Shown: piece after piece, positions 974 through 63,335 of the stretch
Position numbering within the stretch: position 1 is the stretch's first letter
Layout: each line of letters starts with the position of its first letter
Origin: Tridacna crocea
Lineage: Eukaryota > Mollusca > Bivalvia > Cardiida > Cardiidae
Assembly: GCA_943736015.1 (NCBI GenBank)
Contig: OX031068.1
Coordinates: 29,148,296-29,212,295, forward strand
Length of the DNA stretch: 64,000 nucleotides
Direction: 5' to 3'
Translations under genes and position numbers: made by a program
Notes under the pieces: generated by a model
The model's input: only the letters and a program-made list of their open reading frames with translations
Told to the model about the DNA's origin: nothing
Databases searched by the model: none

Positions 974-1254
974 TTAACCTTTTCCCAAGCGACAAACTTT
1001 TGGACTAGATCAAATTGAAAGCATTTGCAGACGACAATTCAACTCTTGCTGAAAAGATTATTTCTGTCTACGATAGGGTAGAAAACATTGTGGGAAAAGG
1101 AGAAAATGCTGGTTACCAGCATTTTCTCCTTTTCCCACAATGTTTTCTACCCTTCACAAAACAAATTTCAAATTTTCAGTAACTTTTATTTTGTCATCTG
1201 CAAATGCTTTTGATTCGGACAAGCCTAAAATATTGTCGTTTGGTAATGAGTTAA
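974..1254. mobile_element. Hairpin MITE, subfamily A, symmetric L-hairpin-L copy
   Basis: TTAA at both edges. The core (1081-1147) is a perfect inverted repeat: the arm GAAAACATTGTGGG runs through AGAAAATGCTGGT and its exact complement follows. Unusually both flanks are the same L arm in opposite orientation (AAGCATTTGCAGACGAC on the left, its complement near 1190-1210 on the right), so the whole element is a diverged palindrome rather than the usual L-hairpin-R. The TTAA target and C-rich TIR point to the piggyBac superfamily; no transposase is present. Confidence 0.9.
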
Positions 1255-1930
1255 ACTAATTTACAATACTTAGATTCCCTGACAGTGAAATTGTATGGCC
1301 TTAAATGTACGAAAAACCGCTCTTTCCCTATGTCGCTGAAAAAGGTGGTATCAGCAATGGTAAATTACAGTAAGCAATTGTGGAACTATGAAGAGAGTAT
1401 CAATGCCATACGTTAATCATATGCTTTAATTTCGTTTTAATGGTCATTTATTGGGGAATCTTACAATTTGAATAACTGTGGCACAATTATCAATTGTCGC
1501 TGAAAATTACTTAACTTCAGTGACTGCTCTGTTTTAGGTGATATGTGGAGTAGGGGCCCTAAATGATGTGTTTCTGTAAAACTTGAGTAATTCATAAACA
1601 ACCTCTACATGTTATCCAAAGTTAAGAAAACACATTTGCCTACTATAGTTAAAGCAAAAATATTGAGTGCATCAGGTATGGCTTGGGTACCAAATTTGTA
1701 AAATCTTATTTAACCTCCATGATTACTTTAAACAGAATTTCTGAGTGTTTATTGGTATCCTGATTGAATTTTCATACAGGCCAAGGTCCCATGTAGATGG
1801 CACAAGTGCTTCCTTTGGTAGGATTATCTTAAATCTGACTAAAACTGTCCAGAATATACAAAATCTTTAACTTCCATGATTGTTAACCTCCGGTACAAAA
1901 TCAATACTTTGCTACACCCTGCATTGTTTT
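1255..1930. other. No feature recognised
   Basis: AT-rich, intron-like sequence. I see no coding frame, repeat or structured element. Confidence 0.4.
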
Positions 1931-3384
1931 TAGCTCACCTGAGCACAACGTGCTCAAGGGGAGCTTTTAGGATCACCCGGTGTCCGTCGTCCATCGTGCG
2001 TCGTGCGTCGTCCGTCGTGCGTCGTGCGTCGTCAACAATTCTTTAAACATCAACTCCTCCTAAACCGCTGGGTGGATTTTGACCAAACTTGGCAGGAATG
2101 TTCCTTGGGAGCTCCTCTTTAAAAATTGTTCACAGAATTTGATTCCATTAAAAACTCTGGTTGCCATGGCAACCAAATGGAATTTTTTAGCAAATTCTTT
2201 AAAAATCTTCTCCTCTGAAACCGCTGGTCGGATTTTGAAATAATTTCACAGATATGTTCCTTGGGTGACCCTTTTCAAAAATTGTTCGTGAAATTTTGAT
2301 TCGTCAAAAAATGTGGCTCTGGTGAATGGGGGCTTCTTGCACTATACAGAAATGAAGGAATTCTTTAAAAATCTTCTCCTCTGAAACCGCTGGTCGGATT
2401 TTGAAATAATTTCACAGATATGTTCTTTGGGTGACCCTTTTCAAAAATTGTTCGCGAAATTTTGATTGGTCAAGAAACATGGCTCTGGTGAATGGGGGCT
2501 ACTTGCACTATACAGAAATGAAGAAATTCTTAAAAATTCTTCTTCTCTGAAACCGCTGGCCAGATTTTAAAACAATTTCACACAGATGTTCCTTGGGTGA
2601 CCCTTTTCAAAAATTGTTCGCGAAATTTTGATCCGTCAAGAAACATGGCTCTGGTGAATGGGGGCTTCTTGCACTATACGGAAATGAAGAAATTCTTAAA
2701 AATTCTTCTTCTCTGAAACCGCTGGCCAGATTTTAAAATAATTTCACAGAAATGTTCCTTGGGTGACCCTTTTCTAAAATTGTTCGCGAAATTTTGATTG
2801 GCCAAGAAACATTGCTCCAGTGAATGGGGGCTACTTGCACTATATGGAAATGAAGAAATTCTTGAAAATTCTTCTTCTCTGAAACCTGTGGTTAGATTTT
2901 AAAATAATCTGACAGAGATGTTCCTTGGGTGACCCTTTCCAAAAGCTGTACATATAATTTTGATCCGTCAAGAAACATGGCTCTTGTGAATGGGGGCTAC
3001 TTGCACTATACGGACATGATGAAATTCTTTAAAATTCTCTTTCTCTGAAACCCCTGGTCAGATTCTGAAATAATTTCAGAGAGATGTTCCTTGGGTGACC
3101 CTTTTCAAAACTTGTTTGTAAATTTTGATCCATCAAGAAACATGGCTCTCGTGGATGGGGGCTACTTGCTCTTATACAGAAATGAAGAATTCTTAAAAAT
3201 TCTTCTTTTTGAAACTGATGGTCAGATTTCGAAATGACTTTTACAGGTGACCTTTTGAAAATTGCTTGGCAAAATTATAAATTTTGTTCCAATGTTTCAA
3301 TACCTCAAAAAAAAAAAAAAAAATAGACTATGGTCATCTCAAAAATTCAGGTGAGCGATCCAGGGCCATCTTGGCCCTCTTGTT
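1931..3384 (+). mobile_element. Non-autonomous element with eight 168-bp tandem units
   Basis: Starts TTTTAGCTCACCTGAGC with a small GAGCACAACGTGCTC hairpin, followed by a GTCGT/GCGTCGTCC stretch (1981-2035). About eight degenerate units follow, marked by GAAACCGCTGG at about 2065, 2216, 2378, 2548, 2715, 2881, 3050 and 3210, giving a period near 165-170 bp. A poly-A run and GGTGAGCGATCCA lead to a terminal hairpin GGGCCATCTTGGCCC and TCTTGTT. A 3' hairpin near the end and internal arrays are Helitron/Helentron-like traits, but no Rep/helicase is present and that class is inference. Other members with related ends lie at 45819-46622, 49381-50542 and 61085-61165. Confidence 0.75.
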
Positions 3385-5188
3385 TACAATTTGAGTTATA
3401 ATAATGTTCACAATAATTGACATTGTCAATATATATACTGCGTCATAGATTACGAGTCAGAATATTTCTTTTTTTGCTGTTTTTAGAAGTGACAGCATGA
3501 TTGAAACAAAGGTGAGTGTTTTCTTCCAGATTTACCCTATATTGCATCTGATAATTATGTTATTGAACAAAGCTGAATCCCCATTTATTGATGTGTAGTT
3601 TCTTGGTTCATGTGCAGCCTTTTAACGTGTGTGCAAGTCACAGTCATCAGAATATTGTTGGTTCTGATATAAGAAATAAAATGTAACGGAAGTTTTGTAT
3701 CGAATGAAAACAAAAAAGTAGAGTGTAGTGCATCGTATTTCACAGTATAAAGGTTGTTGAAATAATTTGTGATAGATGCAAGTCTTTAGCCAATGATTAA
3801 GAGCCAAATCGTGAAATAAAGTACTGTAATTTGGCTTTTTCATAGAGTACGTAACCGAAGTTAAATGAAATCACCAAAAGTATTATATTTACGCCAAGAG
3901 GCACCACTTCAATACAAGCACTACAGAAACATGCTAGCAGTTGTTTTGCTGACACAACATAAGGCTGAGTACTAATATGTACATACAGTTTGGGTGAACT
4001 ATCACATCTTTATCCTGTAACAGAAGTTAATTAAATAAATTAGAATTTAACTTAAGCTTCAGGTTCTTATTTACTAGATTTTCATAACGAAATACAATAT
4101 GTATGTTTATTCCATTACAGAATGCCGTTATCAAGGTCTGAAATACAGAAAATACAGAAAAGATATCGCGAAAAGAAGAAAAAAGAATGTCAGAATTTCA
4201 TGAGCTTTTTGTAGGATCTGGACTTTTTTGCAGATGTATTTGGTGTTTTCAAGAGTGTTATACAGATAGAAAAAAGGATGGTGGAAATGGATTTCACACA
4301 CTAGTTTTGCGGTCCAGATATGACCACAAATAAAGATCTTTCATAAGACATAATCATTAACTTTGTTGTTGAAAACACAGTAGTAAACATTTGCGTTATT
4401 TAATATATTAACTACCGTTACCTGACTAGAATTTCAGAAAATCTCTATATATTTGATTGTAGTTTGGTTTTAGATAGTCAACCAAATGCTTCAGCAATTC
4501 CAAATCCCTGCATAAATTGATGCAGTATGTTGCATTGCATAATTTTTATGCATCGCATTGTGTAAGAATTGTGATAGATCCAGGCTCTCTAAGAATGTTT
4601 TTACTATTCAAACACCAATGACAGTGATAGCATTAATAGCTAAAGCAATCATTCTTGTTGCAAATGTAATAATACATTGCTTCAGTGCCATTTCTAACTT
4701 GGAACAATGTATTATGATCTTTCTCCTAGACTTAAAGTGTACTGGAAGGTGAGATGGTTTGTTACCGGCCTTTCCTATTTCTTTACTCAAAAAACTTTTC
4801 TTCAGTGTCGTTAAAACATGCGATTGTTTAAAGGGCAGCCTGGGTTCAGTCCAATCATTTTCTCCTTTTTTATATTGTGACATTACTTTGTCAAAAATGG
4901 GCAGCATTAAAAAAAGGGGGGGATAAAATAAATCAAACTGTAACCAAGGCTGTGTAAAGGGTTAGATGTAAAACCAAATTTGTCACCCTTTATAGTAATA
5001 TAGCTGACGAAAGAGTTGCCTCTGAAAAAGTAAACTGACTGTTCGATCAATACTGTAGCAAAACAAATGATTGCCAAGTGCAGGGAAAACGTAAATGATA
5101 ATAACTGCAACTAAAAATTGAATTGTCTGTACTTTTTCTCTTTCATATTTTCTGTTCTTCCCACGTAGTATGGCATTTGATTTTTAGA
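3385..5188. other. Intron-like sequence with weak exon-like sites
   Basis: No convincing gene. Two spots look exon-like: 3487-3511 sits between a strong pyrimidine tract ending TTTTTAG and a GTGAGT donor (25 nt), and after ATTCCATTACAG at about 4121 a 30-codon frame begins MPLSRSEIQKIQKRYREKK, a basic stretch. Neither joins to other exons. The rest is AT-rich. Confidence 0.3.
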
Positions 5189-5425
5189 TATAACTCTTTA
5201 CAAAACAACCAAATTATGGACTAAACCAAACTAAAAGCATTTACGGGCGTACATACACGACTAACTACATTTGCTCAAATGATAATTTTCTTTCTCTGAT
5301 ATTATTATGAATATTGTGGGAAAAAGAAGCAAAGGCTGTTTACCAGTATTTTCTCATTGTCCAGCAATGTTTTCTAAAACCTCTTTCATAGTTATTAAAG
5401 CTTGGGATTGCAGTACTTGTTCCTT
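5189..5425 (+). mobile_element. Degenerate hairpin MITE, subfamily A
   Basis: TAACTCTTTAC start, an L arm with AAAAGCATTT and a decayed core (ATTGTGGGAAAAAG against TGTCCAGCAATGTTTTC) with many mismatches, then an R arm ending CTTGGGATTG. No TTAA remains on the right. Confidence 0.6.
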
Positions 5426-6125: not shown

Positions 6126-6355
6126 TTAACTCATTACCAAACGACAATATTTTAGGCTTGTCCAAATTGAAAGCATTTTGCAGACAACAGAATAAAAGTA
6201 ACTGAAAATTTGAAATTTGTTTTGTGAAGGGTAGAAAACATTGTGGGAAAAGTAGAAAATGCTGGTTACCAGCATTTTCTCCTTTTCCCACAATGTGTTC
6301 TAAAGGCTTCTTTCACAGGGGAGTCAAAAGTAGGGATTGTGTGATAATGGGTTAA
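6126..6355 (+). mobile_element. Hairpin MITE, subfamily A
   Basis: TTAA at both ends (CTCATTACCAAACGAC start, GATAATGGG end), full L-core-R order. Core 6234-6300 carries one arm mismatch (AAGTAG against CTCCTT). Confidence 0.9.
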
Positions 6356-6788
6356 TGTGAACTCTGTAGTATCATTAGTATGTCATACAATGGCGGTATT
6401 AACAACACATTCTAATATTGTTTTAACCCTTAACCCATTACCAAACAACAAAATTTTGTAAAATAAATATAGTCACTCAGTTTTTCAATATTTCGGCCAG
6501 CGGCCTTTCTCAAGAAAAGAAACGTAAATTTATCTACTTTGTAGATGCATGTCTTATGCCATTGTTGTATACAGGATGTGACGTCATTGTGAAATACATA
6601 ATGTTTGATCCCGCGCTAATTAAATTAACGTTAATTGATAGCGGGAATCTTTGACGTTACACCCCGCTGGCCGGTGAGTCCGTAATTTCTGTATCCAAGT
6701 TGATTCGTACATTAATCTCTCTGTCTTACAGCCTGATTTTATTTGTTGTAATATAGAAAAAACAGCATTCTTGAAAAATGACCGTTAA

Positions 6789-8319
6789 GCGACCCATAGC
6801 TCATTTCACAAAATTAAAACCTACAAAGCAAATACAGATAGGAAAGATAATAATCTTAGAAGTGGAAATATTCAGTGCAATGCTAACCGGAAATATGGTT
6901 GCACAAATGAACATACATATCAAGAACCAAGATGTTCAGTTGTTAATCTTTCAAAACATAAATTAACTGACGCACAAATTTTTCTTCTCGAAAAAGGACT
7001 TAAATTCATTCCAACCAGTGGCAAGATAAATAAGATAAAACTTCTATCGGATTTAGCTGAGTGGGAACGTAGAATGAGACTGAAGGAATATTTTTATGAC
7101 AAAGAAGGAAATCTGAATGATGCATGTAATGTGCAAACGAAATTCCAATCGAAGCAGAAAAGTTATTTTATGCCCAATCCTGGGAGAGATGCCCACCTTG
7201 ACCTATATATAGAACTTGTAAAGACAGATATAATAGAAAATTTGAAAAAGAAAGGAAATTTCAACGTAACGAAGGAAGAAAAGGCTGCTTTTTTTTAGCT
7301 TCTAAACAACCCAGATATTGTGATTCACCCAGCCGATAAAGGATCGGGTATAGTCATAGTAGATAAGAATGAATACATAAGTGAACTATTAACCGAAATG
7401 GATAGAAGTGATATATATGAGAGGACGGAGCAGAAGCAGATTGAGGACAGTTATAAAGAAATAAAAAAAACTGGTAGATAAGATGCATAAGGAAGGGGTG
7501 ATCGCAAAGGAAATGAAACAATATCTAATTCCAAAATATGCAACTGCTGGAAAACTTAAAGGGAACCCAAAAATACACAAAAAGGACATACCGTACAGAA
7601 CAATTGTCAGTGGTATAAACACACCTACTGAGAGAATAGCAGAACTAGTAGAACATGAACTAAATCAGTACGTCGAATCTTCACCAAGCTATATACAAGA
7701 CACAAATGACTTTATCAATAAACTTGCAGATTTTAATGACAGAATACGAAAAGATAGTATTTTATTCTGCTTTGATGTTTGCAGGCTTTACCCATCAGTT
7801 CCTAGGAAAGAAGGATTGGCTGCATGCAAAGAAGCTTTAGAAATGCGCTCAACAAAATTAATTGACATCGAAAGTGCTATGAAACTGATCGAGGCTGTAC
7901 TTGACAACAACATATTCGAATTTGGCGACAACTATTTTATTCAAAGAAAAGGGGTGGCTATTGGTTCCAAATTAGGAAAAAACTTTGCATGTTCCTACAT
8001 GCGAAAATGGGATGAGGAACTTCTGAAATATTCAAAACAGCCAGTCTTCTACAAGAGATTCATTGACGATGGTTTTGGTATTTGGTGTGGGAGTGTAGAA
8101 AAACTTCAGGGGTTTGCAAAACATGCCAACAGCATACATAATGACATCAAGGTTGAGTTGAGAATGCACACGAGACAGATAGAGTTCCTAGATACTCTAG
8201 TGAAGATAGAGGATGATAAGATCTGTACGGACCTATGCGTCAAACCAACTGATAAACAACTTGAAATGATGTCACATCCTGTATACAACAATGGCATACA
8301 ACGTGCATCTACAAAGTAG
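6789..8319 (+). pseudogene. Penelope-like reverse transcriptase, broken ORF
   Basis: One frame is open from 6789 to 7295 and includes LSKHKLTDAQIFLLEKGLKF and the N-terminal region of Penelope-like RTs. An in-frame TAG (7296-7298) follows a T-run, then the same frame continues with NNPDIVIHPADKGSGIVIVD, a typical PLE block. A run of eight A near 7467-7474 causes a shift into the frame that begins in the 7480s and runs to the stop at 8317-8319. That part has PKIHKKDIPYRTIVSGINTP, FDVCRLYPSVP (RT motif A region), GVAIGSKLGKNFACSYM, and FIDDGFGIW (catalytic DD). It ends soon after LCVKPTDK; the usual downstream region and GIY-YIG nuclease of complete PLEs are missing, replaced by the sequence that is also in the inverted left arm. 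The element is therefore non-functional and reads as an internally deleted copy. Confidence 0.9.
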
Positions 8320-8334
8320 ATAAATTTACGTTTC

Positions 8335-8372
8335 TTTTCTTGAGAAAGGCCGCTGGCCGAAATATTGAAAAA
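8335..8372 (+). other. Hammerhead-ribozyme-like motif in PLE 3' region (degenerate)
   Basis: CTTGAGAAAGGCCGCTGGCC followed by GAAA. The GGCC-GCT-GGCC stem plus GAAA matches stem II and the conserved GAAA of hammerhead ribozymes, which are known in Penelope-like pseudo-LTRs. The other core strand reads CTTGAGA instead of CTGANGA, so catalysis is doubtful. The complement lies in the left arm near 6490-6515. Confidence 0.4.
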
Positions 8373-8628
8373 CTGAGTGACTATATTTATTTTATTTAAG
8401 TGTTGAATTCCCTACGGAATTATTTTTTGTATTGATAACAAAATTTTAGACTGGTCCAAATTGAAAGCATTTGCAGACGACAAAATAAAAGCGACTGAAA
8501 ATTTGAAATTGGTTTTGTGAAGGGTAGAAAACATTGTGGGAAAAGGAGAAAATGCTGGTTTTCCCACAATGTTTTCTAAAGGCTTCATTCTGAGGGGGCG
8601 TCAAAAGGAGGGATTGTGTGGTAATGGG

Positions 8629-8850
8629 TTAACCAAACGACAAAATTTGAGAACAGTCCAAATTGGAAGTATTTGCGGACGACTAATGTAATGTGAGTCA
8701 AAAATTGAAATCTGTTTTAGGATGGATAGAAAACATTGTGGGAAAAGGAGAAAATGCTGGTTACCAGCATTTTCTCCTTTTCCCACAATGTTTTCAAAAC
8801 GTTTCTTTTTCAGGGTAGTTAAAAGTCTTGATTGTGTGGTAAAGGGTTAA
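8629..8850 (+). mobile_element. Hairpin MITE, subfamily A, sharing a TTAA with its neighbour
   Basis: Begins at the TTAA that closes the previous copy, with a shortened left TIR (CCAAACGAC). Core 8729-8795 is a perfect palindrome around GGTTACC. The R arm ends GGTAAAGGG-TTAA. Confidence 0.88.
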
Positions 8851-8884
8851 TTCTTAATTCTTATATTAGTCTCCTAATAGGCTT

Positions 8885-9050: not shown

Positions 9051-9279
9051 TTAATTCTTTACCACACAAGAAAATTTTAGACTGGTCCAAAATGAAGGCA
9101 TTTGCAGATGACAAAATAAATGTGACTCAAAAATTGAAATTTGTGCTGGGAAGGGTAGAAAACACTGTGGGAAAAGGAGAAAATGCTGGTTACCCGCATT
9201 TTCTCCTTTTCACATAGTGTTTTCAAAGGCTTCTTTCTTAGGGGCGTCAAAAGTAGGGATTGTGTGGTAATGGTTTTAG
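9051..9279 (+). mobile_element. Hairpin MITE, subfamily A
   Basis: TTAATTCTTTACC start, full L arm, core about 9167-9231 with the CACTGTGGG variant and mismatches near the loop (GTTACCCGC), R arm ending GGTAATGG-TTTTA (right TTAA decayed). Confidence 0.85.
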
Positions 9280-9459: not shown

Positions 9460-9689
9460 GTAACTCTTTACCAAAGGAGAAAATTTTAGACTGGTCCAAA
9501 TTGGAAGCATTCGTAGACGACAAACAAAAAGTAACCGAAAAATTGAAATTTGGTTTGGGAAGGGTAGAAAACGTTGAGGGAAAAGGAGAAAATGTTAGTT
9601 ACCAGCATTTTCTCCTTTTCCCACAATGTTTTCAAAAGGCTTCTGTATCATGGTCATTAAAAGTAGAGATTGTGTAGTAAAGGGTTAAA
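9460..9689 (+). mobile_element. Hairpin MITE, subfamily A
   Basis: GTAACTCTTTACC start (left TTAA decayed); core 9567-9633 with a few single-arm substitutions (ACGTTGAGGG, ATGTTAGTT); R arm ends GTAAAGGG-TTAA. Confidence 0.87.
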
Positions 9690-10052: not shown

Positions 10053-10249
10053 AGGTTGAATTCCATTTTTTGTGGAATGTTGTTTGGTTGTATTGAACAT
10101 AGACTTTAGGTTATCAATAATATTGTTTTCTTTAGAATTTTTCATTCTAGCTTTTTGAATTATTTTACAAACTGAGAGTTAATTCAGATATATAAGTAGT
10201 CATATCTGGTAGCAAAGAAATGCTACACTGTGATATGAATTTATCTATT

Positions 10250-10439
10250 TACCCTTTTCCGCATGAAAAAAATTGACAGAGGTCCAAATTCAAAGTTATT
10301 GCAGGAAGCAAAATCGAACATGGCTTCTTGTGGGACTTAGAGAAAATGATGATTACCAGCATTCTCTCATTTTCCTTCAATGTTTTCAAAGGTGATCATA
10401 CAGGGTCAATAAAAATTGGGATTTCATTATAAAGAGTAA
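10250..10439 (+). mobile_element. Hairpin MITE, strongly decayed
   Basis: ACCCTTTTCC start, GGTCCAAATTCAAAG in the L arm, a core remnant GATTACCAGCATTCTCTC, and an R arm ending ATAAAGAG. Confidence 0.6.
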
Positions 10440-10460
10440 AAAAGCCTTACAGAAAAGCCT

Positions 10461-10770: not shown

Positions 10771-10990
10771 TAGACCCTTTACCAAACAAAGCTAACTTTT
10801 AACAGCCCTGGGATAAAATCTTTTTGAAAACATTGTGAGAAAAGGAGAAAATGCTGGTAACCAGCATTTTCTCCTTTTCTCACAGTGTTTTCTACCTATT
10901 CACAGAAAAATCTCTTCATTTAAACCACACTGAAATTGTCATCTGCAAATGCTTTGAAGTCTGAAATTTTGTGGTCTGCTAAAGGGTTAA
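10771..10990 (-). mobile_element. Hairpin MITE, subfamily A
   Basis: TAGACCCTTTACCAAAC start (TTAA mutated to TAGA), R arm left; core 10826-10892 is nearly perfect with GTGAGAAAAGG/CCTTTTCTCAC changed on both arms; L arm right, ending GCTAAAGGG-TTAA. Confidence 0.87.
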
Positions 10991-11614: not shown

Positions 11615-11886
11615 TTATTCCTTTACCAAACAACAAAATTTTAGACTCGTCCAAATTGAAAGCATTTGCAGACGACAAAATAAATGTAACTCAGAAATTG
11701 AAAAGTTGTCCTGGAAAACCTTATGGGAAAGGAGAAAATGTTGGTAACCAGCATTTTCTTCTTTCCCACAATGTTTTCTACCCTTTCTAACACAGATTTT
11801 AATTTTTGAGTTGCCAATAATTTTGTTGTCTGCAAATGCTTTCTTTTTGGACTCATCTTAAATAATGTCATTTGGTAAAGATTTAA
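11615..11886. mobile_element. Hairpin MITE, subfamily A, symmetric L-hairpin-L copy
   Basis: Both flanks are L arms: AGACTCGTCCAAATTGAAAG with GCAGACGAC on the left, and the complement (GTCTGCAAATGC, TTTGGACTCATC) on the right. The core near 11717-11780 keeps TTGGTAACCAGCATTTTC with losses. Second palindromic copy in the window. Confidence 0.85.
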
Positions 11887-12313: not shown

Positions 12314-13167
12314 CTTGGTTGTTTATGGTCCTGAGTAGGACGTTTAAGTCATCAAGGCATTTGTAAGTCATTACTTCTCTTCAAAACCCAATGTTTCGGG
12401 CACTCATTAGAATTGTCTCGATGAGACGGTTCTAATGAACACCCGTAGGATTTAATGGAGAATAATTAAAAATCACTATGGAGATGATTTTTTTTCTTTA
12501 TTTAAGCCCCATTTAGTTTTTTACCTGCAATACTTGTGATTTGATAGAGTCTGAAAACATGTTAATTGGTAAAAAGTTCAACTGGAATAAGCTTCTAAAG
12601 GGAGAAAATTTGACGGAAAGGAAAGTGTTTCTAGTTTTGTTATGGTATGGTTTTGTGTTGGTTGATTTTGAAATTTATGATGGTTGAATTTAGCATTCAG
12701 GGACCAAGTTTTGATTAGAGATCTGTATTTTTACTTAATTTTGTCTTGTTATAAAGTTTCAATTAATATCCCTGCTGTAGATTTTTTTATTCAAAAACTA
12801 AATTTTGAAAAAGAGCAAAGTGTTACTCCTTTTCTAAATGTTTTTTTCATGTCATTTAAAAAAGGACATATTCCCTTTCTTCAATCATTTTTTATTACAT
12901 GTACTAGTTAGAGATATGATACACTCCTTAATGGTACAAATGTTATCATATCTTTTAGCAGTACAAGTTAGTGCAATGATTTTGTTCTTTTGTGAAATTT
13001 CTTTGATATGGTCTAATATATGTAAGCACATATCCATTTGCTACCCTTGAATTTTTACTACATGTATTTTTGTCAAAGATGTCACTTGTTTAATGTGCTG
13101 GTAAAATCACTAAGCCTTTTGTGAAGGAATATGTTAAAATAACTATGATTACATCGTAATTCTATTT
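12314..13167. other. AT-rich stretch with one hairpin
   Basis: Contains an inverted repeat at 12398-12446: GGGCACTCATTAGAATTGTC against its complement around a GAT loop, two of the differences being G-U wobbles. Otherwise only short frames in T-rich sequence. Confidence 0.45.
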
Positions 13168-13411
13168 ATCTTTTTACTAGACGACAAAATTTTAGACTGT
13201 TCCAAATTGCAAGTACATGTATTAGCAGATGACAAAAATCAAAGTTTTCATCAAATCAATCATAAATTGAAATTTGTTTTAGGACGGGTAGAAAACATTG
13301 TGGGAAAAGGATAAAATGCTGGTTACTAGCATTTCCTCCTTTTCCAGCAATATTTTCAAAGGCTTCTTTTACAGAGTTATGTAAACCAAGTATTGTTTGG
13401 TAAAGAGTTAA
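13168..13411 (+). mobile_element. Hairpin MITE, subfamily A
   Basis: L arm (GACGACAAAATTTTAGACTG) with a small insertion near ACATGTATTAGCAG; core 13291-13357 with a TTACTAGC loop edge; R arm ends TTTGGTAAAGAG-TTAA. Confidence 0.85.
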
Positions 13412-15769: not shown

Positions 15770-15996
15770 TTAACACTTTACCAAACAATCCCGACAATCC
15801 TGACTTTTAACGACCCTGAGAATGAAGCCTTTTGAAAGCATTGTGGTAAAAGGAAAAAATGCTGATTACCAGCATTTTCTCCTTTTCCCACAATGTTTTC
15901 TACCTTTCCAAAGTCAAAATTCAGTTTTGGTTTTGTCGTCTGCAAATGCTTTCAATTTGGACATGTCCAAAATTTTGTCGGTTGGTCAGGAGTTAA
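15770..15996 (-). mobile_element. Hairpin MITE, subfamily A
   Basis: TTAA at both ends. R arm contains AACGACCCTGAG, core about 15834-15900 with GATTACCAGC, L arm with GTCTGCAAATGCTTTCAATT. Core mismatches are few. Confidence 0.87.
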
Positions 15997-16197: not shown

Positions 16198-16420
16198 TTA
16201 ACTCATTTCCAAATGACAAAATTTTAGGTTTGTCCAAATCGACAGCATTTGCAGATAACAAAATAAAAGTGACTGAAAAATTTGTTTTGTGAAGGGTAGA
16301 AAACTTTGTGGGAAAAGGAGAAAATGCTGTTTACCAGCATTTTCTCCTTTGCCAACATTGTTTTCGAAAGGCTTCTTTCTCAGGGACGTCAAAAGTAGGG
16401 GTTGCGTGGTAATAGGTTAA
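16198..16420 (+). mobile_element. Hairpin MITE, subfamily A
   Basis: TTAA at both ends (CTCATTTCCAAATGAC, GGTAATAGG). Core 16299-16365 with single-arm changes (AAACTTTG, TTTGCCAACATTG). A further core fragment, CAACCAGCATTTTC to CAATGTTTATACCC, lies just upstream at 16133-16185. Confidence 0.88.
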
Positions 16421-16449: not shown

Positions 16450-16709
16450 CACTTGCTTTCAAATTGGACAAGTCCAAAATCTAGGTCAATTTAACCCTTT
16501 ACCAGACAATCTATAATTCTAACAATCCTATAATAGAAGACTTTCAAAAACATTTTGGGGAAAGGAGGAAACACTGGTTTATCTGGTTACCAGCATTTTT
16601 TTCCCTTTTTCAGTAATGTTTTTTTCAATTTTTGAGTATCATGTAACATGTTTTCAAATTATTTTGCTTTGGACTAGTCTAAAAATTTGCCATTTGGTAA
16701 AGAATTTTA
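16450..16709 (-). mobile_element. Orphan L arm followed by a decayed hairpin MITE
   Basis: Orphan L arm at 16450-16485 (CTTGCTTTCAAATTGGACAA). The main copy starts at TTAA 16491 with CCCTTTACCAGAC; its core has an extra TTTATCTGG insertion before GTTACCAGC and ends in a worn L arm with TTTGGTAAAGAAT. Confidence 0.75.
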
Positions 16710-16904
16710 GAAATGTGCAAGATTACTGAAAAGGCACAATACTGAATTGTTATAATAGTGGATTTTTAGGCAATTTACTTCCCTTCTGTGGTACAATCTG
16801 TTAGAAAGTACATGTACATTGTATTTGACGGAGATATGCCCAACTTAACCAACTTGAGTGAAAAATGTTTTAAAGGACATAGCTACCATCGTTTGGAGGC
16901 ATAA

Positions 16905-17130
16905 ACTCTTAATCAAACAACAAAAATTTAGACCTGTCCAAATTGAAAGAATTTAAAGATGACAAAATAGGTGTGACTAAAATACTAAAAACCGTTTTTG
17001 GTCTGGAAGAAAACATTGTGGGTAAAGAAGAAAATGCTGGTGACCAGCATTTTCTTCTTTTCCCACAATGTTTTCAAAAGGTTTCATTTTCAGGGTCAGT
17101 AAAAGTCTGGATAGTGTGTTGAATGGTTAA
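16905..17130 (+). mobile_element. Hairpin MITE, subfamily A
   Basis: L arm AGACCTGTCCAAATTGAAAG, core 17009-17075 with loop GGTGACC and the paired change GAAGAAAATG/CATTTTCTTC on both arms; R arm ends GAATGG-TTAA. Left TTAA decayed. Confidence 0.85.
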
Positions 17131-17214: not shown

Positions 17215-18252
17215 TTTTTTCATCTATTTATAGAAATAGTACATACTTCAAATGGAACAATACTTACAAGGACCAATTCTTGAACGACATTTCAAGAGGA
17301 ATAGAAAATCTTCGAGAAAGCCTACTCTCTGACATAGAAAATCATAGCGAGTCTGACGTATTGCTTACCAAGTTTACGGATTTCTTATGCAAAATTAATG
17401 TGGCAACAAGTACTTTAAAAGGCATGTGTGTAACCCGGACAATAATTCAGAAAACCAAGATCAAGCATGGTTTGATAATGATTGCCGCGACAAGCGCACA
17501 CTGTACCGCGTAGCTCTAAATCATTTTAACAAGTTTAAAACCGAATCGGCTCGTAAAGAGCTATTTGAAAAACGCAGAGAATATAACAACTACTGCCAAA
17601 AACAGAAATCTCGATATAGTTCAAATATGTGAATGAAATGAAGCGAACGCGACCGCGAGAATTTTGGAAACTATTTATAAAAGAAACAATCGAACATTGC
17701 AGGAGAGGAAATTTCAATCAAAAACTTTCAGAACTACTTTAAAACTTTAGTGTCAGACAATGAAGGGAAACCCGACGAAGAGGTAGAATGTTTTATGTCA
17801 GATTTTGATATGACCTATTCTTCCGTTACATTTGAGGAGCTAGATACCAGAATTACACAGTCTGAGATCAGACGCGCATGCAAACAATTGAACACTAACA
17901 AGGCATGCTCGATAGATAACATACTATATGAATACCTGAAAGAGAGTATCGATCTAACAGTAAGCTCCTTCGAAATCCTTTTTAATTACATACTGGAAAC
18001 AGGAAACTTTCCAAAAAATTGGTCAAAAGGTCTCATTGTCCCCATTTATAAAAAAGGCGATCCGTTCGATCCTTCGAACTATCGAGGCATAGCATTGATA
18101 AGCTGTTTCGCAAAGCTATTTACGGTTATACTTAATAATAGACTGAAAGATTGGGCGGAAAAGAACAGTATCCTAACGGATGCTCAGTTCGGATTTCGAT
18201 CGGGCTTCGGCACTGTCGACGCAGCCATGTACGGGGGTCTGATCTCGTTTGA
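17215..18252 (+). pseudogene. LINE (non-LTR retrotransposon) ORF2 remnant, 5' part
   Basis: Segments in several frames belong to one non-LTR RT ORF. 17215-17440 gives FKWNNTYKDQFLNDISRGIE; after a shift, 17426-17632 gives AWFDNDCRDKRTLYRVALNH and KRREYNNYCQKQKSRY, the linker before RT. Another frame gives VNEMKRTRPREFWKLF. From about 17700 the RT domain runs: LNTNKACSIDNILYEYLKE, NFPKNWSKGLIVPIYKKGD, PSNYRGIALISCFAKLF and DAQFGFRSGFGTVDAAM, the fingers and early palm of CR1/L2/Jockey-like RTs. Similarity fades at about 18250, before the FADD catalytic motif. At least two frameshifts and the missing palm make it dead. Confidence 0.88.
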
Positions 18253-18694
18253 TTATAATAGAGATTTTTTTTCGTCATTGCCTATTAGGGTTCGTTATGC
18301 AATCGTCAGCATAATTAAAAACATGGCGGCGGCACCGTCTGCAATCCAAAACGATACCGTTTAATTTAATTTTGGAATGAATCTTGCAGTAATTTAGCAA
18401 AACAGCGGCTGAATAATTCTAAAAGAAACGGTCCTAAAGGTAAAATAAGCTCTTTTACATAGTTGTAACGTTATTTGATGACAGAAACTAACTGGGAATA
18501 GTTCAGGCGTTACGTAGAAAATTTGCGATAAACTGTAATTAATAGGCCATAGTTCTGTAGTCTGGCAATGAGCTGCGGGTAGTGTGTATGTGGGGGGGGG
18601 GGGGGGGGGGAATCAGCGTTATAAGCGTAACCCCGGATATAACGCTGTTGACAACCATGGCTCCCACTGACAGCGTTATAACGGAGCTCCACTG
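18253..18694. mobile_element. Foreign insert in LINE with one Tigger-like terminal repeat
   Basis: The LINE frame stops before this block and restarts after it. The right edge is the complement of CAGTGGAGCTCCGTTATAAC followed by TA (18695-18696), which resembles pogo/Tigger-type termini and their TA target. Two more GCGTTATAA/TATAACGC copies lie at 18615-18645. No matching left terminus is seen, and about 200 or more RT codons are absent, so insertion and deletion both occurred. A poly-G run lies at 18594-18610. Confidence 0.5.
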
Positions 18695-20790: not shown

Positions 20791-21024
20791 TTAACCCATT
20801 ACCACACAATCCCTACTTTTTGACGCCTCTGGAAAAAAAGCCTTTCGAAAACAAAGTGGGAAAAGGAGAAAATGCTGGTAACCAGCACTTTCCCCTTTTC
20901 CCACAATGTTTTCTACCCTTCACAAAACTAATTTCAAATTTTCAGTCACTTTCATTTTGTCGTCTACAAATTTATGCTTTCCATTTGGACTAGCCTAAAA
21001 TATTGTCATTTGGTAATGAGTCAA
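20791..21024 (-). mobile_element. Hairpin MITE, subfamily A
   Basis: TTAACCCATTACCACACAAT start, R arm GACGCCTCTGG, core 20847-20913 with few mismatches (CAAAG, CACTTTCCCC), L arm CGTCTACAAATTTATGC, end GGTAATGAG-TCAA (right TTAA mutated). Confidence 0.88.
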
Positions 21025-22717: not shown

Positions 22718-22951
22718 TTAACCCTGTACCCCTTAAGGCATTTCTATGGTATTTCTAATTGACCCTAAATAACAGCAAGGATGAAGCTGTTTCTTATGTG
22801 TATACGGCACCTTTTAATAGCATAGAAAACATTGTGACAAAAGGTGAAATTGCTCGTCACGTGACGAGCAATTTCACCTTTTTCCACAATGTTTTCCAAA
22901 GGCTCCTACAAGCAATGCGTAGAAATGAGTATCTATGGAGTAAAGGGTTAA
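22718..22951 (+). mobile_element. Hairpin MITE, subfamily C
   Basis: TTAA at both ends. Left arm CCCTGTACCCCTTAAGGC with GACCCTAAATAACAGCAAGG; core 22825-22896 with tip TTGCTCGTCACGTGACGAGC, longer than in the other C copies; right arm GGCTCCTACAAGCAATGC ends GGAGTAAAGGG. Confidence 0.9.
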
Positions 22952-23799: not shown

Positions 23800-24027
23800 T
23801 TAACCCTTTACCCCATAAGGCATTTCTGTGGTATCTCTAATTGACCGTAAATAACAGCAAGGATGAAACTGTTTCTTATGTGTATATGACACCTTTTGAT
23901 AGCAAAGAAAACATTGTGGCAAAAGGTGAAATTGCTCGTCACGAGCAATTTCACCTTTTGCCACAATATTTTCCAAAGGCTCCTACAAGCAATGCATAGA
24001 AATGAGTATCTATGGTGTAAAGGTTAA
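23800..24027 (+). mobile_element. Hairpin MITE, subfamily C
   Basis: TTAACCCTTTACCCCATAAG start. Core 23907-23973 pairs TGTGGCAAAAGGTGAAATTG with its complement, tip GCTCGTCACGAGC, one mismatch near the base. Right TTAA present, with GGTGTAAAGG. Confidence 0.9.
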
Positions 24028-24596: not shown

Positions 24597-24815
24597 ATAA
24601 ACCCATTACCACACAATCCCTACTTTTGACACCCCTGATAAAGAAGCCTTTTGAAAACATTGTGGGAAAAGGAGTAACCAGCATTTTCTCCTTTTCCCAC
24701 GATGTTTTCTACCCTTCACAAAACAAATTTCAAATTTTCAGTCACTTATATGTTGTAGTCTACAAGTACTTTCGATTTGGACAAGCCTAAAATGTTTTCG
24801 TTTGTTAAGGCGTTA
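24597..24815 (-). mobile_element. Hairpin MITE, subfamily A, shortened left core arm
   Basis: ACCCATTACCACACAATCCC start (TTAA mutated to TAAA), R arm, core 24653-24710 in which GGAG joins TAACCAGCATTTTC (part of one arm deleted), L arm ending TTTGTTAAGG. Confidence 0.82.
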
Positions 24816-25040
24816 CTAGAACAAATTAACATGAAATGAATGACCTCTTTTACCATATATTATGTGCTTGAATAATTGTTCAAACTTGGCTTTGGCTAGT
24901 CTCGACTGCATGTAGAACTATGTAAATGTTTTTTAACTCTTTGTGCAGCTAATAGATTAAGGGTGCCTTTAATTAATACTTAAAAATAAACTTGATTTTG
25001 TTGGTTTAAATTGATAATTAATATATGGTGAGTGACATAG

Positions 25041-25227: not shown

Positions 25228-25472
25228 TTTTACCCTTTACCATACAAAGACGAGTTTTAACGACCCTGGAAGAGAAGCTTTTGGGAACTTCCAAAAGCTT
25301 TTGGGAAAAAAATGTAGGAAAAGGAGAAAATGCTGGTAACAGCATTTTCTCCTTTTCCTACAATGTTTTTTTACCTTTAGAGACAGTTCGTCATTCCATT
25401 GCCATGTTATAAGCCGCTGAAAATACTCATGATTGGGGAAAGTCTAAAATTTTGCCATGTGGTAAAGGGTCA
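25228..25472 (-). mobile_element. Hairpin MITE, subfamily A
   Basis: ACCCTTTACCATACAAAG start, R arm with TAACGACCCTGGAAG plus a short internal duplication of CTTTTGGGAA, core about 25311-25368 (GCTGGTAACAGC), L arm ending GTGGTAAAGGG. Confidence 0.82.
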
Positions 25473-25633
25473 TTTATTCTTTGCATAAAGGTCAATTTCA
25501 GGTCAAGACATACTGTTTTTTATGGATCCCTAATTCTGTAATGTAATGCATAGTGTGATGCATCACACAGAGATACGTTAGGCCCCTGTTTGCCAGAACA
25601 TGGCTCAATTATGTCAATGATATTGTGAAATCT

Positions 25634-42769: not shown

Positions 42770-43852
42770 CAAGATACGCCGGCCACACCGCCAGTTGTCA
42801 AGGGGGAATGCTAATCGTAAAGGGCAGGTAGAGGAAAATAGCAGTGCAGCAGATTATGATTCTTATGCACTACATTACATAATTTTTCAACAATCATGCA
42901 TACCAATTTGAAGATGTTTAGACTGAAAATGACAAATTTACATTCCGGACAAGCAGAAATGCTGTGAAAATGACGATCAAAGGGAAATATACTCAAAGAC
43001 AGCATGAGGTAGAGTCACGGTTCTTTCGCACTGCTCTTTGTATTATTGCAACAAACACAAATGCCATGTTTCAAGTCAATCGGACCAGAAATGACAAAGT
43101 TAGGCACTGGACCAGCGGAAAATGCTGTTAAAATGACGATCAAAGGGAATTAACTTAAAATCAGCATGTGGTAGAGTTATGGTTCTTTTGCACTGCACTC
43201 CCTATTATTGCAACAAACACAATTGCCAAGTTTCAAGTCAATCGGAATTCAGATGACAAAGTTATGCTGCGGACAAACAAAAAATGCTGTTAAAATAAAG
43301 ATCAAAGGGAAATAACTCAAAGACAGCACAATGTAGCGTTATGTACTTTTGCACTGCACTCCGTATTACTGCAACAAACACAATTGCCAAGTTTCAAGTC
43401 CAGAGATGACAAAGTTATGCTCCAGACAAGCAGAAAATGTTATTAAAATGACGATCAAATGGAAAATAACTCAAGACAGTACGAGGTAAGAGTTATGGTT
43501 CTTTCACACTGCACTCTGTATTATTGCAACAAACAAAATGCCAAATTTCAAGTCAATCGGACCAGAGATGACAAAGTTACTCTCCGGACAAGCAGAAAAT
43601 GCTGTAAAATTGACGATCAAAGGGAAATAACTCAATGAGAGCTCAAGGTAGAGTTACGGTTCTTTTGCACTGCACTCCGTATTATTGCAACAAACACAAT
43701 TGCCAAGTTTCAAGTCAATCAGACCAGAGATGACAAAGTTATCCTCCAGACAAAGAAGGGGACGCCGCCCACCCACCCGCCTCGACGCCATGGGTGATCC
43801 CATAATACGTCCGTCGAAATTCGACGTCCGTCGAAATTCGACGGACGTATAA
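42770..43852 (+). mobile_element. Element with six 160-bp tandem units, ending in a palindrome
   Basis: Starts near AAGATACGCCGGCCACACCG. Units repeat ATGACAAAGTTATGCTCCGG, CAAGCAGAAAATGCTGTTAA, AATGACGATCAAAGGGAAAT and CTCCGTATTATTGCAACAAA with markers at about 43048, 43210, 43373, 43527 and 43687. After GACGCCGCCCACCC and GGTGATCCCATA it ends in the ACGTCCGTCGAAATTCGACG palindrome (43801-43847) and TATAAT. It splits the 170-bp array. A Helitron-like class is inference from structure only. Confidence 0.7.
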
Positions 43853-43988: not shown

Positions 43989-44220
43989 TTAACCCCTTAC
44001 TCCATAGATACTCATTTCTATGCATTGCTTGTAGGAGCCTTTGGAAAAAACATTGTGGCAAAAGGTGAAATTGCTTGTGACGAGCAATTTTACTTTTTGC
44101 CACAATGTTTTCTACTCTTATCAAAAGTTGTCATTAACACATAAGAAATGGCTTCATCCTTGCTGTTATTTAGGGTTAATTAGAGATACCATAGAAATAC
44201 CTTATGGGGTAAAGGGTTAA
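43989..44220 (-). mobile_element. Hairpin MITE, subfamily C
   Basis: TTAACCCCTTACTCCATAGA start, GCATTGCTTGTAGGAGCC; core 44045-44112 with TGTGGCAAAAGGTGAAATTG and two mismatches; end TTATGGGGTAAAGGG-TTAA. TTAA intact on both sides, abutting the 170-bp array. Confidence 0.9.
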
Positions 44221-45565: not shown

Positions 45566-45778
45566 TTAACCCATTACCACACAATCCCTACTTTTGACGA
45601 CCCTAAGTAAGAAGCCTTTAGAAAACGCTGTGGGAAAAGGAGAAAATGCTGGAAATTCCCACAATGTTTTCTACTCTTCACAAAACAATTTTCAAATTTT
45701 CAGTCACTTTTATTTTGTCGTCTGCAAATGCTTTCAATTTGGAGAAACCTAAAGTTTTGTTGTTTGGTAATGAGTTAA
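45566..45778 (-). mobile_element. Hairpin MITE, subfamily A, one core arm shortened
   Basis: TTAA at both ends. R arm CTACTTTTGACGACCC, core 45621-45672 in which AATGCTGG joins AAATTCCCACAATG, L arm GTCGTCTGCAAATGC, end GGTAATGAG. Confidence 0.87.
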
Positions 45779-57449: not shown

Positions 57450-57673
57450 GATACTTTCCCAAACAAGCCCTGGTTTTTACTTGTCTGCAGTAAAAGTCTT
57501 TTGAAAACACTGTGGGAAAAGGAGAAATTTCTCGTAACGAGCAATTTCTCCTTTTCCAACAGTGTTTTCTACCCTTTGACAGCATTTTGCCATTTTCTCA
57601 AAATCTAAAATTGTCATCAGCAAACTCTTTCAGTTTGGAAGAGTCCAAAATTTGTCGCTTGGGAAAGGGTTAA
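57450..57673 (-). mobile_element. Hairpin MITE, subfamily B
   Basis: ACTTTCCCAAACAAGCCCTG start (left TTAA lost), core 57503-57569 with ACACTGTGGG and tip CTCGTAACGAGC, right arm CATCAGCAAACTCTTTC, end GCTTGGGAAAGGG-TTAA. Confidence 0.9.
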
Positions 57674-59704: not shown

Positions 59705-59933
59705 TTAACTCTTTACCACACGAGAAAATTTTAGACTGGTCCAAATTGAAAGCATTTGCAGACGACAAAATAAATGTGACTGAAAAATTGAAATTTGTTC
59801 TGGGAAGGGTAGAAAACACTGTGGGAAAAGGAGAAAATGCTGGTTACCAGCATTTTCTCCTTTTCCTACAGTGTTTTCAAAAGGCTTCTTTCTCAGGGGC
59901 GTCAAAAGTAGGGATTGTGTGGTAATGGGTTAA
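59705..59933 (+). mobile_element. Hairpin MITE, subfamily A, near-consensus copy
   Basis: TTAACTCTTTACCACACGAG start, complete L arm (AGACTGGTCCAAATTGAAAG, GCATTTGCAGACGAC, TTGTTCTGGGAAGGGTAG), core 59812-59878 with one mismatch, complete R arm (GGCTTCTTTCTCAGGGGCGT), end GGTAATGGG-TTAA. A good reference for subfamily A. Confidence 0.93.
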
Positions 59934-60150: not shown

Positions 60151-60164
60151 GACTATCCTCTTTT

Positions 60165-60850: not shown

Positions 60851-61079
60851 GTAACCCTTTACCAAACGACAAAATTTTAGACTGGTCCAAATTCAAAGCA
60901 CTTACAGACGACAAAATAAATGTTACTCAAAAATTGAATTTTGTTTCCAGCAGGGTGGAAAACATTGTGGGAAAAGAAGAAAATGCTGGTTACCAGCATT
61001 TTCTCCTTTTCCCACAATGTTTTCAAAAGGCTTCTATCTCAGGGTCATAAAAACCAGGGATTGTTTGGTAAAGGGTTAA
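60851..61079 (+). mobile_element. Hairpin MITE, subfamily A
   Basis: GTAACCCTTTACCAAACGAC start (left TTAA worn), L arm AGACTGGTCCAAATTCAAAG, core 60958-61024 essentially perfect (one change, GAAGAAAATG), R arm CTTCTATCTCAGGGTC, end TTTGGTAAAGGG-TTAA. Confidence 0.9.
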
Positions 61080-61084
61080 AGAAA

Positions 61085-61242: not shown

Positions 61243-61460
61243 TTAACCCATTCCGAATGACAAATTTTGGACTCTTCGAAACCAAGAGTTTGCAGACGAC
61301 AATTTTAGATTTGGAGAAAAGGCCAGAAAGTTCTCAGAAAGGGTATAAAACACTGTGGGAAAAGGAGAAGTTACGAGCAATTTCTCCTTTTCCCACAGAG
61401 TTTTCAAAAGACTTTTACTGCAGACACGAAAAAAACAGGGCTTGTTTGGGAAAGGGTTAA
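61243..61460 (+). mobile_element. Hairpin MITE, subfamily B
   Basis: TTAACCCATTCCGAATGAC start, GAGTTTGCAGACGAC, core about 61346-61404 with tip shortened (AGTTACGAGCAA), R-type arm GACTTTTACTGCAGACACG, end GTTTGGGAAAGGG-TTAA. Confidence 0.88.
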
Positions 61461-61606: not shown

Positions 61607-61839
61607 TTAACCCTTTACCACACAATCCCGACTTTTAACAGCCCAGAGAAAGAAAACTTCTGACAACATTGTGGGAAAAGGAGAAAATGGTGGTAACCAG
61701 CATTTTCTCCTTTTCCCACAATGCTTTCTGCCCTTCCCAAATGAAATTTCAATTTTTGATTCACATTAATATAAACTGTCTTCTGCAAATGCTTTGAATT
61801 TGGACTAGTCTAAAATTTTGTAGTTTGGTATAGAGTTAA
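61607..61839 (-). mobile_element. Hairpin MITE, subfamily A
   Basis: TTAA at both ends. R arm TCCCGACTTTTAACAGCCC; core about 61665-61731 with ATGGTGGTAACCAGC; L arm TCTTCTGCAAATGCTTTGAA; end TTTGGTATAGAG. Confidence 0.88.
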
Positions 61840-62032
61840 TAAACCCTTTACTCCATAGATACTCATTTCTATGCATTGCTTGTAGGAGCCTTTGGAAAAC
61901 ATTGTGGCAAAAGGGGAAATTGTTCGTGACGAGCAATTTCACCTTTTGTCTCATTGTTTTCTGTGCTATCAAAATTTGTCATAAACACGTAAGAAACGGC
62001 TTCATCCTTGCAGTTATTTAGGGTCAATTGGA
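61840..62032 (-). mobile_element. Hairpin MITE, subfamily C, right end truncated
   Basis: AAACCCTTTACTCCATAGAT start directly after the preceding copy; core 61895-61961 (ACATTGTGGCAAAAGG, TTGTTCGTGACGAGCAA, with changes TTTGTCTCATTG); arm AACGGCTTCATCCTTGC, then the terminal part is missing after AGGGTCAATTGG. Confidence 0.85.
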
Positions 62033-62620: not shown

Positions 62621-62815
62621 TTAACCCCTTACTAAACAACCCTGAGTTCTAAAAATATTGTTAGAAAAGGAGGAAATGCTAGAAATCAGCATTTTTCACA
62701 ATGTTTTCTACCAATCTTTTTGGACAAATTTCATCTTAGAACTGTATTTATTTGGTGTTTACAAAAAGCTTTCAAGTTGAACCTGAGTAAAATTCTGTTG
62801 TCTAGTAAACAGTCA
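62621..62815 (-). mobile_element. Hairpin MITE, subfamily A, worn
   Basis: TTAACCCCTTACTAAACAAC start, R arm mostly deleted, core ATTGTTAGAAAAGGAGGAAA with tip CTAGAAATCAG, L arm worn, end GTCTAGTAAACAG. Lies in the intron between the two ABCG2-like exons. Confidence 0.75.
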
Positions 62816-62952
62816 ACCTGAAAAATGAATTAAACTGAACATTTCACCTGACAGTAATAACACAAAATCTACCCTAATTTCAGAAGGTATTTTTGCCTGG
62901 AAAAACCTGCCATTTCAAAATGGATGCCAGATCAAAGATCACACTACACATT

Positions 62953-63027
62953 GATAGGCGAGTGAAACACTATTCTAAGTGGCTGTACAATGTACAGGCA
63001 CTTAGAATAGTGTTGCACTCGCCTATC
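62953..63027. repeat. 36-bp-stem hairpin
   Basis: GATAGGCGAGTGAAACACTA with TTCTAAGTGGCTGTAC, a 3-base loop, then the complementary arm GTACAGGCACTTAGAATAGT with GTTGCACTCGCCTATC. Two mismatches only. No homology to the MITE core. It lies in the ABCG2-like intron. Confidence 0.85.
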
Positions 63028-63106
63028 GACATTTTGTGCAACAAGATTGCGATACACACATCTGTAAATGAGTATTCATTCCCACTTTCCAGCCTAAGTA
63101 ACTATT

Positions 63107-63335
63107 TTAACCCTTTCCCAGACGGCAAATTATGGACCAGACCAATTCAACGCATTTTGCCGATGACAAATTAATAGTTGCTTAAAAGATGATTTTTCTA
63201 TATGATAGGATAGAAAACATTGTGGGAAAAGGAGAAAATGCTGGTTACCAGCATTTTCTCCTTTTTCCCACAATGTTTCCAAAAGGCTTCTATTCCTTTC
63301 CTGTAAAAACCAGGGATTGTTTGGGAAAGGTTTAA
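63107..63335 (+). mobile_element. Hairpin MITE, subfamily A, with TTTCCC termini
   Basis: TTAACCCTTTCCCAGACGGC start, L arm with GCCGATGACAA, core 63213-63280 near perfect with one extra T, R arm GGCTTCTATTCC, end GTTTGGGAAAGG-TTTAA. It has a subfamily A core with B-like ends. Confidence 0.9.

Follow-up and report, generated by a model that had tools for sequence, protein, structure and literature searches.

What does a long, near-perfect palindrome do inside a transposable element of 229 bp? The question is raised by a 64,000-nucleotide stretch of the Tridacna crocea genome (C13:29148296-29212295, hereafter the window), which is crowded with copies of one family of miniature inverted-repeat transposable elements (MITEs), here family 1, that carry a hairpin unrelated to their terminal inverted repeats (TIRs). 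How MITEs come to exceed their parents in number by orders of magnitude is in itself a long-standing problem. We conclude that the family very probably consists of piggyBac MITEs, non-autonomous and inserted at TTAA, and that, on balance, these are probably piggyBac MITEs whose palindromic core is a DNA-level cis element raising transposition of the 229-bp element. The window was analysed within the 1.05-Gb assembly (31 contigs, of which C1-C18 are chromosome-sized) and together with a genome sample of 18 stretches of 10 kb, one per contig on 18 contigs (180,000 bp), all of which begin at position 5,000,001 and are therefore spread out, not random.

A typical copy, at 59705-59933, reads TTAA, L arm, core, R arm, TTAA, and its length of 229 bp is the commonest. 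The core is a near-perfect palindrome of 67 bp with 33-bp arms, set between an L arm of 107 bp and an R arm of 55 bp. Measured with the TTAA included, the L arm is exactly 107 bp long in 31 of 58 copies and 105-109 bp in 49 of them; 43 of the 58 have an R arm of exactly 55 bp. The difference between the arms, 52 bp, is about five helical turns. The elements are short and non-coding, and the two open reading frames (ORFs) of at least 150 aa in the window both lie outside MITE bodies.

With up to two mismatches allowed, the half-core GAAAACATTGTGGG matches the window 80 times, a total attained by none of 100 shuffles, against 1.15 expected, and the TIR CCCTTTACCAAAC 59 times against 2.39, and four seeds merge into 55 intervals that cover 11,387 bp, or 17.8% of the window. 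The initial annotation had spoken of more than fifty copies or remnants, which is borne out by 56 core loci in the window. Across 254 kb there are 169 such loci: 88 have the order L-core-R in either orientation, three carry two L arms (L-core-L'), none was called R-core-R, and the remainder, part of which belongs to a second family described below, have one recognised arm (47) or none (31). MITE matches cover 21,989 of the 180,000 bp of the sample (12.2%; standard error 2.6%, bootstrap 7.7-17.1%; tandem-array copies not collapsed), a figure that may be too low, as the sample contained 37 exact half-core 14-mers where 67 were expected. Genome-wide, that 14-mer occurs 390,213 times (reversed-order control, 11) and the exact central 39 bp of the core 152,335 times (control, 0). 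The number of core loci is thereby placed at roughly 0.65-1.2 million, calibration on the 14-mer giving 1.17 million and plain scaling of the 111 loci in 180 kb, 11 of them array copies, giving ~650,000. At L017 and L019 the cores repeat at ~1.64-kb and ~1.85-kb steps, apparently in tandem arrays with one MITE per monomer.

Both piggyBat and piggyBac target TTAA. In the window and sample together, TTAA stands at both ends of 45 of the 72 copies that reach both model ends and at one end or more of 65; because the end model includes part of the TTAA, this count alone is not independent proof, which is provided by abutting copies and empty sites. Among 67 neighbour pairs with facing model ends, five abut at the TTAA position and four of the five share an intact TTAA. 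Joining the flanks of the copy at 35217-35445 produced 26 alignments to a tandem array that span the junction, some of them overlapping (one of the three inspected has a 4-base gap there), and the joined flanks of the copy at 60851-61079, whose left end is GTAA, match empty relatives at L023:8449-8559 and L015:239-346. TTAA candidates called de novo number 38, of which 25 contain the core; 19 of these start with CCC and six with CTC, the latter departing from the strict CC(C/T) hallmark, as does the right end of the autonomous element described next. Within the window alone, TTAA occurs at both ends in 11 of the 25 copies that reach both model ends, which falls short of the at least fifteen copies claimed in the initial annotation; this strict count leaves out copies of family 2, two of which (cores at 22825 and 44047) add TTAA-type ends at about the expected distances.

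The genome contains 118 matches to PF13843, many with open frames, and 18 of these loci were read, mostly in part and ten of them on the upstream side only. Two copies with a 486-aa exon, on C3 and C5, share 99.8% identity across 3,035 bp and 98.9% across 1,584 bp, and both stop at identical TTAA borders beyond which the flanking DNA differs; the element spans ~7.2 kb, the C5 copy having been compared outside its middle, and its sequence appears to contain an intron. The exon matches piggyBat 9c0f (E 5.8e-40) and piggyBac 6x67 (E 4.8e-36), with the aspartates that we take to be catalytic aligned. The C3 element begins with TTAACCCATTACC and ends, inverted, with TTAACTCATTACC, a CCC/CTC asymmetry that is also that of the R and L ends of the MITE; the L-end TIR of the MITE is the right-end TIR of one autonomous element. 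The likeness extends through the R arm, whose CCCATTACC subtype aligns ungapped with the first 39 bp of C3 at 32 identical positions (score 25) and whose CCCTTTACC subtype agrees with the left end of a relative on C7 at 34 of 38 bp (score 30); the best of 500 shuffles scores 17 in each comparison. The C7 relative is a single copy of ~6.4 kb with borders inferred from ~71-72% identity at both ends, and it and the C3 element have four subterminal repeats each, 35 bp apart, of which the MITE retains one. The piggyBac assignment, which had been drawn from the TTAA and a CCC-start TIR, is thus supported by an autonomous partner in the same genome, and a host piggyBac transposase with the same TIRs, proposed as a check, was found: the R arm and both TIRs match, and the remaining L arm does not. 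Kolobok has the same TTAA target according to the part of PMC9587614 available to us, and it is very improbable as the mover of these elements, since its termini are given there as 5'-RR whereas those of the MITE are CCC or CTC, and since the partner with matching ends encodes a piggyBac transposase; the genome itself was not searched for Kolobok.

Other piggyBac loci were considered as partners and rejected because their TIRs do not match the MITE, namely L028/L031/L036 (CCCTTTATATAC), L029/L039 (CCCTTGTCATGC or CCCTAGTCATGCGGG) and L037/L040 (CCCTTTCAGTGCGGG). These loci make up at least three further piggyBac families with open-frame copies and TIRs of their own (CCCTTTATATAC, CCCTAGTCATGCGGG, CCCTTTCAGTGCGGG). 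No TIR was found in the DNA read at L032 and several other piggyBac loci, and borders were not identified at C1:49496002, where both sides were read.

The internal hairpin had been described as the most conserved part of the element, and an alignment of copies, which the initial annotation had suggested, agrees. Across 88 elements, to which array copies contributed no rows, the core differs from the consensus at 396 of 5,683 cells (6.97%), the L arm at 1,480 of 7,571 (19.6%), the R arm at 622 of 3,207 (19.4%), and the left and right TIRs at 13.5% and 11.4%. Core divergence is below arm divergence by a factor of 2.8, and it is the lower of the two in 83 of the 85 elements that could be compared (Wilcoxon p 1.6e-15). 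As 81 of 82 elements picked by their arms alone contain the core, its low divergence is not only a matter of ascertainment by the core. The core/arm ratio of pairwise divergence is 0.41 across 2,955 pairs, and the constraint on the core may be read as acting mainly in lineages that multiply, with an unexplained residue. Of 28 deletion events, 13 fall in the core, which makes up 30% of the length (p 0.043), and the enrichment is not significant among young copies; as proof of hairpin extrusion these deletions were set aside as weak. Core gaps of at least 4 bp were seen in 15 copies, two pairs of which share the aligned position but not close arms, and 13 of the 15 are closest to a copy with an ungapped core and one to a copy with a gapped core, the nearest neighbour of the remaining one not being computable; with few sources, this neighbour evidence is weak too.

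Conservation of the core appears, from its sequence, to concern its shape and not only its letters. Pairing was tested on ungapped 67-bp cores only, namely 67 of 157 from family 1 minus nine array copies (L017, L019) and 10 of 12 from family 2; array copies were likewise collapsed in the family-1/2 core alignment and in the larger count below. In the 62 distinct cores the proportion of paired cells is 93.0%. Two-sided changes occupy 69 cells; shuffling gives 18.3, with none of 500 shuffles attaining 69, and sliding the partner gives at most 21, although relatedness inflates these counts because one inherited change is counted many times. Eleven pairs show any two-sided change, which is less remarkable, as 47 of 500 shuffles reach that number. 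A count over 148 family-1 cores, in which gapped cores were kept and gap cells set aside, gave 71 compensated, 28 uncompensated double and 497 one-sided changes, with a permuted mean of 22.2 compensated; 52 of the compensated changes lie at seven subfamily-diagnostic positions (12.8 permuted). The prevalence of one-sided over compensated changes indicates that resident copies decay mostly one-sidedly, whereas lineages changed both sides together. At pair 20 the intact form occurs 152,335 times genome-wide and the one-sided change 4,215 times.

Six pairs have at least three two-sided cells, and four of them (pairs 14, 21, 26 and 31) are flips of A:T to T:A or G:C to C:G, which cannot pass via a G:U wobble and hence argue against a wobble path. 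These four flips mark family 2, with flips 26 and 31 also present in the family-1 cores at 35272-35338 and 57503-57569, and they mainly separate family 2 from family 1 and so may represent few events. The loop is one base, three in the computed fold, and the whole element folds into a stable stem-loop at -95.7 kcal/mol compared with -50.1 for shuffles (z -10.5).

At least two MITE families share the family-1 core and have different arms, a point missed by the initial annotation. Family 2 combines this core, altered by the four compensated flips, with the same layout, its long arm being exactly 107 bp in 8 of 12 loci and its short arm exactly 55 bp in 8 of the 9 where it was found; its exact 32-bp half-core occurs 20,724 times genome-wide. 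Between the two families the core can be aligned throughout and the first TIR bases (CCCTTTACC) are also common to both, whereas the L arms match no better than shuffles (251 of 500 as good) and the R arms marginally (12 of 500). Family 3, with 30 matches and two full copies, has TTAA and CCCTTAA ends and an unrelated hairpin with ~30-bp arms; one copy is laid out as 107/42, the other, which seems to contain an insertion, as 41/138. MITEs with other ends, as judged by eye, carry hairpins related to that of family 3. This second hairpin type (H2) has 111 two-sided cells against 39.3, counted on 34 of 51 available sequences with a structure written from one sequence, and examples of its superfamily with different MITE ends lie at L020:708-773, L012:5852-5919, L025:7257-7318 and L025:6074-6138. 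Strong hairpins number 98 in the 254 kb and 0 in one shuffled copy, 67 of the 98 overlapping family-1 or family-2 cores. At least four more hairpin families, apparently unrelated and with arms of 28-68 bp, are represented at L025:4556-4627, L011:1800-1888, L020:6205-6297 and L014:2922-3061.

A DNA-level cis role of the palindrome in transposition, taken by itself, seems to us plausible though short of an even chance, as judged from the sequences. Three points favour it: lineages that spread have retained sequence, pairing and spacing alike; the flips speak against a wobble path; and a layout of the same type recurs, round an unrelated hairpin, in another TTAA MITE family. Between the cruciform aid and the RNA hairpin put forward in the initial annotation, the conserved 107/67/55 layout, the flips and the one-base loop slightly favour a DNA-level role. 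The R arm resembles one subterminal-repeat unit at the left end of the resident autonomous piggyBac elements, and the core has been retained, in sequence and in pairing, in lineages that multiplied, while resident copies decay mostly on one side. The core might be a dyad-symmetric site for binding by the transposase or by a host protein. Alternatively, it might extrude a cruciform that acts as a hinge, so that ends ~230 bp apart can synapse; either option would fit the fixed layout. Retention of a single subterminal repeat, in place of the parents' four, may also lift autoinhibition, in line with the report that subterminal repeats inhibit transposition in piggyBat (PMC11707139, in the sections available to us).

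Several observations weigh against this reading. The closest 0.5-5% of pairs keep a core/arm divergence ratio of 0.61-0.67, so selection at the level of the sources may not explain everything, and outside the diagnostic positions compensated changes number 19 against 9.3, a value reached by 1 of 500 permutations. Past its terminal 14 bp the MITE L arm matches neither the C3 nor the C7 right end, and the 14-bp match itself does not exceed shuffles by score alone. No core match lies within ~480 bp of either end of the autonomous C3 or C7 element, which implies that the palindrome is not needed for transposition as such; matches deeper inside look like nested MITEs, some weakly flanked by arms, the nearest being 490 bp from the C3 right end (32 bits). 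Saturation could conceal homology between the arms of families 1 and 2, whose equal spacing may then be partly inherited, and the argument from a 52-bp helical phase is post hoc.

Could the palindrome instead have arisen as a by-product of half-element fusion, passed on by few sources and homogenised by recombination or template switching with no benefit to the element? Few sources accounting for everything would make this possible, and the two L arms of L-core-L' copies such as 974-1254 plainly differ, which is what exchange at a palindromic joint should produce; the weak excess of core deletions and the modest excess of compensated pairs outside the diagnostic positions point the same way. 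A neutral core should, however, decay like the arms in source lineages, whereas families 1 and 2 keep the core with L arms that cannot be aligned, pairing has outlived changes at several pairs, and a similar layout recurs in a third family whose hairpin is unrelated; we regard this origin as rather unlikely. Selection as an RNA hairpin, with read-through transcripts diced to miRNA or siRNA, is unlikely. The fold far more stable than shuffles and the covariation are what it would lead one to expect, yet microprocessor substrates usually need a loop of about ten bases where the core has one (three in the fold), Rfam gave nothing in the window at gathering score, four of the six pairs with at least three two-sided cells are flips and not wobble-path transitions, though their events may be few, and there is no evident reason for small RNAs to help the element spread. 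The human precedent for such a hairpin is Made1/hsa-mir-548, with 37-bp inverted repeats near the length of the 33-bp stem here (PMC1784062, from the portion available). Made1 is likewise a near-perfect palindromic MITE able to fold as hairpin RNA, but its palindrome is its TIRs, unlike the hairpin here (same portion of PMC1784062).

It is more doubtful still that the core arms are subterminal inverted repeats, serving as transposase sites, of a lost or unread autonomous parent, joined by deletion of the transposase gene. The asymmetric placement of the core (107 versus 55) recalls piggyBac ends, which bear asymmetric 19-bp palindromic sites bound by a CRD dimer (PMC11707139, sections available), but C3 and C7, both ends of which were read among the 18 of 118 loci looked at, have no core near their termini, and on that account the core was rejected as a subterminal repeat of the resident partner. 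A broader and speculative extension of the DNA-level reading, which we think less likely than not, is that palindromic hairpins are portable, shape-selected cis modules of MITEs, acting as synapsis hinges or symmetric docking sites. Its basis is the occurrence of the family-1 hairpin (H1) in two TTAA families with unalignable L arms and of H2, unrelated to it in sequence, in a third TTAA family of similar layout and in MITEs with quite different ends, which are presumably moved by other transposases. If true, such modules would let ~200-bp elements out-transpose their parents, explaining how one MITE group came to be about a tenth of a genome.

The closest known system is the CMITEs of the coral Acropora. 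As described in the available parts of PMC2872659, these are TTAA MITEs with CC(C/T)T-type ends in several families, one tied to a resident piggyBac; their internal region is more conserved than the TIRs, they occur in tandem arrays, and the authors suspect that the internal region takes part in transposition. CMITEs are ~100 bp long with an estimated ~1,600 copies in A. millepora, compared with ~229 bp and 0.65-1.2 million core loci here, and the parts of that account available to us describe no palindrome, covariation or fixed geometry such as the covarying 33-bp-arm hairpin; families 1 and 2, like CMITE families, have an internal region better conserved between them than the remaining sequence, but unlike those they share the first TIR bases too. 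piggyBat and piggyBac resemble the present system in transposase family, in subterminal sites repeated at one end and in palindromes bound by a CRD dimer, as far as the available sections of PMC11707139 go, but C3 and C7 have four subterminal units spaced by 35 bp where piggyBat has three spaced by 44 bp, and the palindromes there are end sites of 14-19 bp, whereas that of the MITE is internal, 67 bp long and near-perfect. The highly conserved domains of short interspersed nuclear elements, such as the V domain, are comparable as a conserved internal module in differing non-autonomous elements (PMC6887750, in part). In the open papers searched, with Repbase outside that scope and several sources available in part, we found no piggyBac MITE described as having a covarying palindromic core; a conserved internal region is already known from CMITEs, and the features for which we found no printed precedent are the covarying palindrome, its fixed spacing and an abundance of this order. 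A likely parent, the MITE, reduced subterminal repeats, fixed geometry and a covarying palindrome coexist in one genome, which makes the contribution of the internal palindrome to transposition directly testable. Should it contribute, the palindrome would represent a cis determinant of a new kind, with a use in short transposon vectors, and the internal region of coral CMITEs, so far unexplained, might be accounted for in this way.

The copies delimited in the window are as follows.

974-1254, no strand: L-core-L' copy, two diverged 107-bp L arms round a perfect core at 1081-1147, TTAA both ends
6126-6355, +: full-length L-core-R MITE, core 6234-6300, TTAA both ends
8435-8631, +: L-core-R MITE with shortened core 8527-8576, L-arm start (6431-6458) separated by an inserted element
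8630-8851, +: L-core-R MITE abutting the 8435-8631 copy, core 8729-8795
9051-9278, +: L-core-R MITE
9460-9688, +: L-core-R MITE
10248-10440, +: degraded copy
10771-10990, -: L-core-R MITE
11620-11884, no strand: L-core-L' copy
13166-13411, +: L-core-R MITE
15770-15996, -: L-core-R MITE, TTAA both ends
16198-16420, +: L-core-R MITE, TTAA both ends
16491-16708, -: degraded L-core-R MITE
16902-17130, +: L-core-R MITE
20791-21024, -: L-core-R MITE
22718-22951, +: family-2 MITE, core 22825-22896 with compensated pair changes, L arm unalignable
23800-24027, +: family-2 MITE, core 23907-23973, right end judged by eye
24598-24816, -: L-core-R MITE, shortened core
25229-25473, -: L-core-R MITE
25775-25989, -: L-core-R MITE, shortened core
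28325-28549, +: L-core-R MITE, slightly shortened core
35217-35445, -: L-core-R MITE, CCCTTTCCC TIR subtype, at a TTAA of a tandem array, with empty sites in other monomers
36595-36831, +: L-core-R MITE, CCCTTTCCC TIR subtype, TTAA both ends
43989-44220, -: family-2 MITE, core 44047-44112
45566-45778, -: L-core-R MITE, shortened core, TTAA both ends
59705-59933, +: best full-length copy, L 107, core 59812-59878, R 55, TTAA both ends
60851-61079, +: L-core-R MITE, left end GTAA, empty relatives found
61243-61460, +: L-core-R MITE, TTAA both ends
61607-61839, -: L-core-R MITE, TTAA both ends
61840-61973, -: partial copy of family-2 type, core 61895-61961
62621-62816, -: degraded L-core-R MITE
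63107-63335, +: L-core-R MITE, TTAA both ends

The copy at 8435-8631 is split by a ~2-kb element at 6459-8397, bounded by inverted repeats as judged by eye and apparently a younger insertion; the divided L arm consists of 6431-6458 and 8435-8524, with a short duplication at the insertion. A 278-aa ORF in the inserted element (7483-8319) has no Pfam match and is reverse-transcriptase-like by impression only. Elsewhere in the window, tandem arrays occupy 2192-3235 (166-bp unit, 6.3 copies) and 42929-43753 (162-bp unit, 5.1 copies), and a fragment at 17750-18364 resembles a retrotransposon reverse transcriptase (RVT_1, E 6.4e-6, under the curated cut-off).

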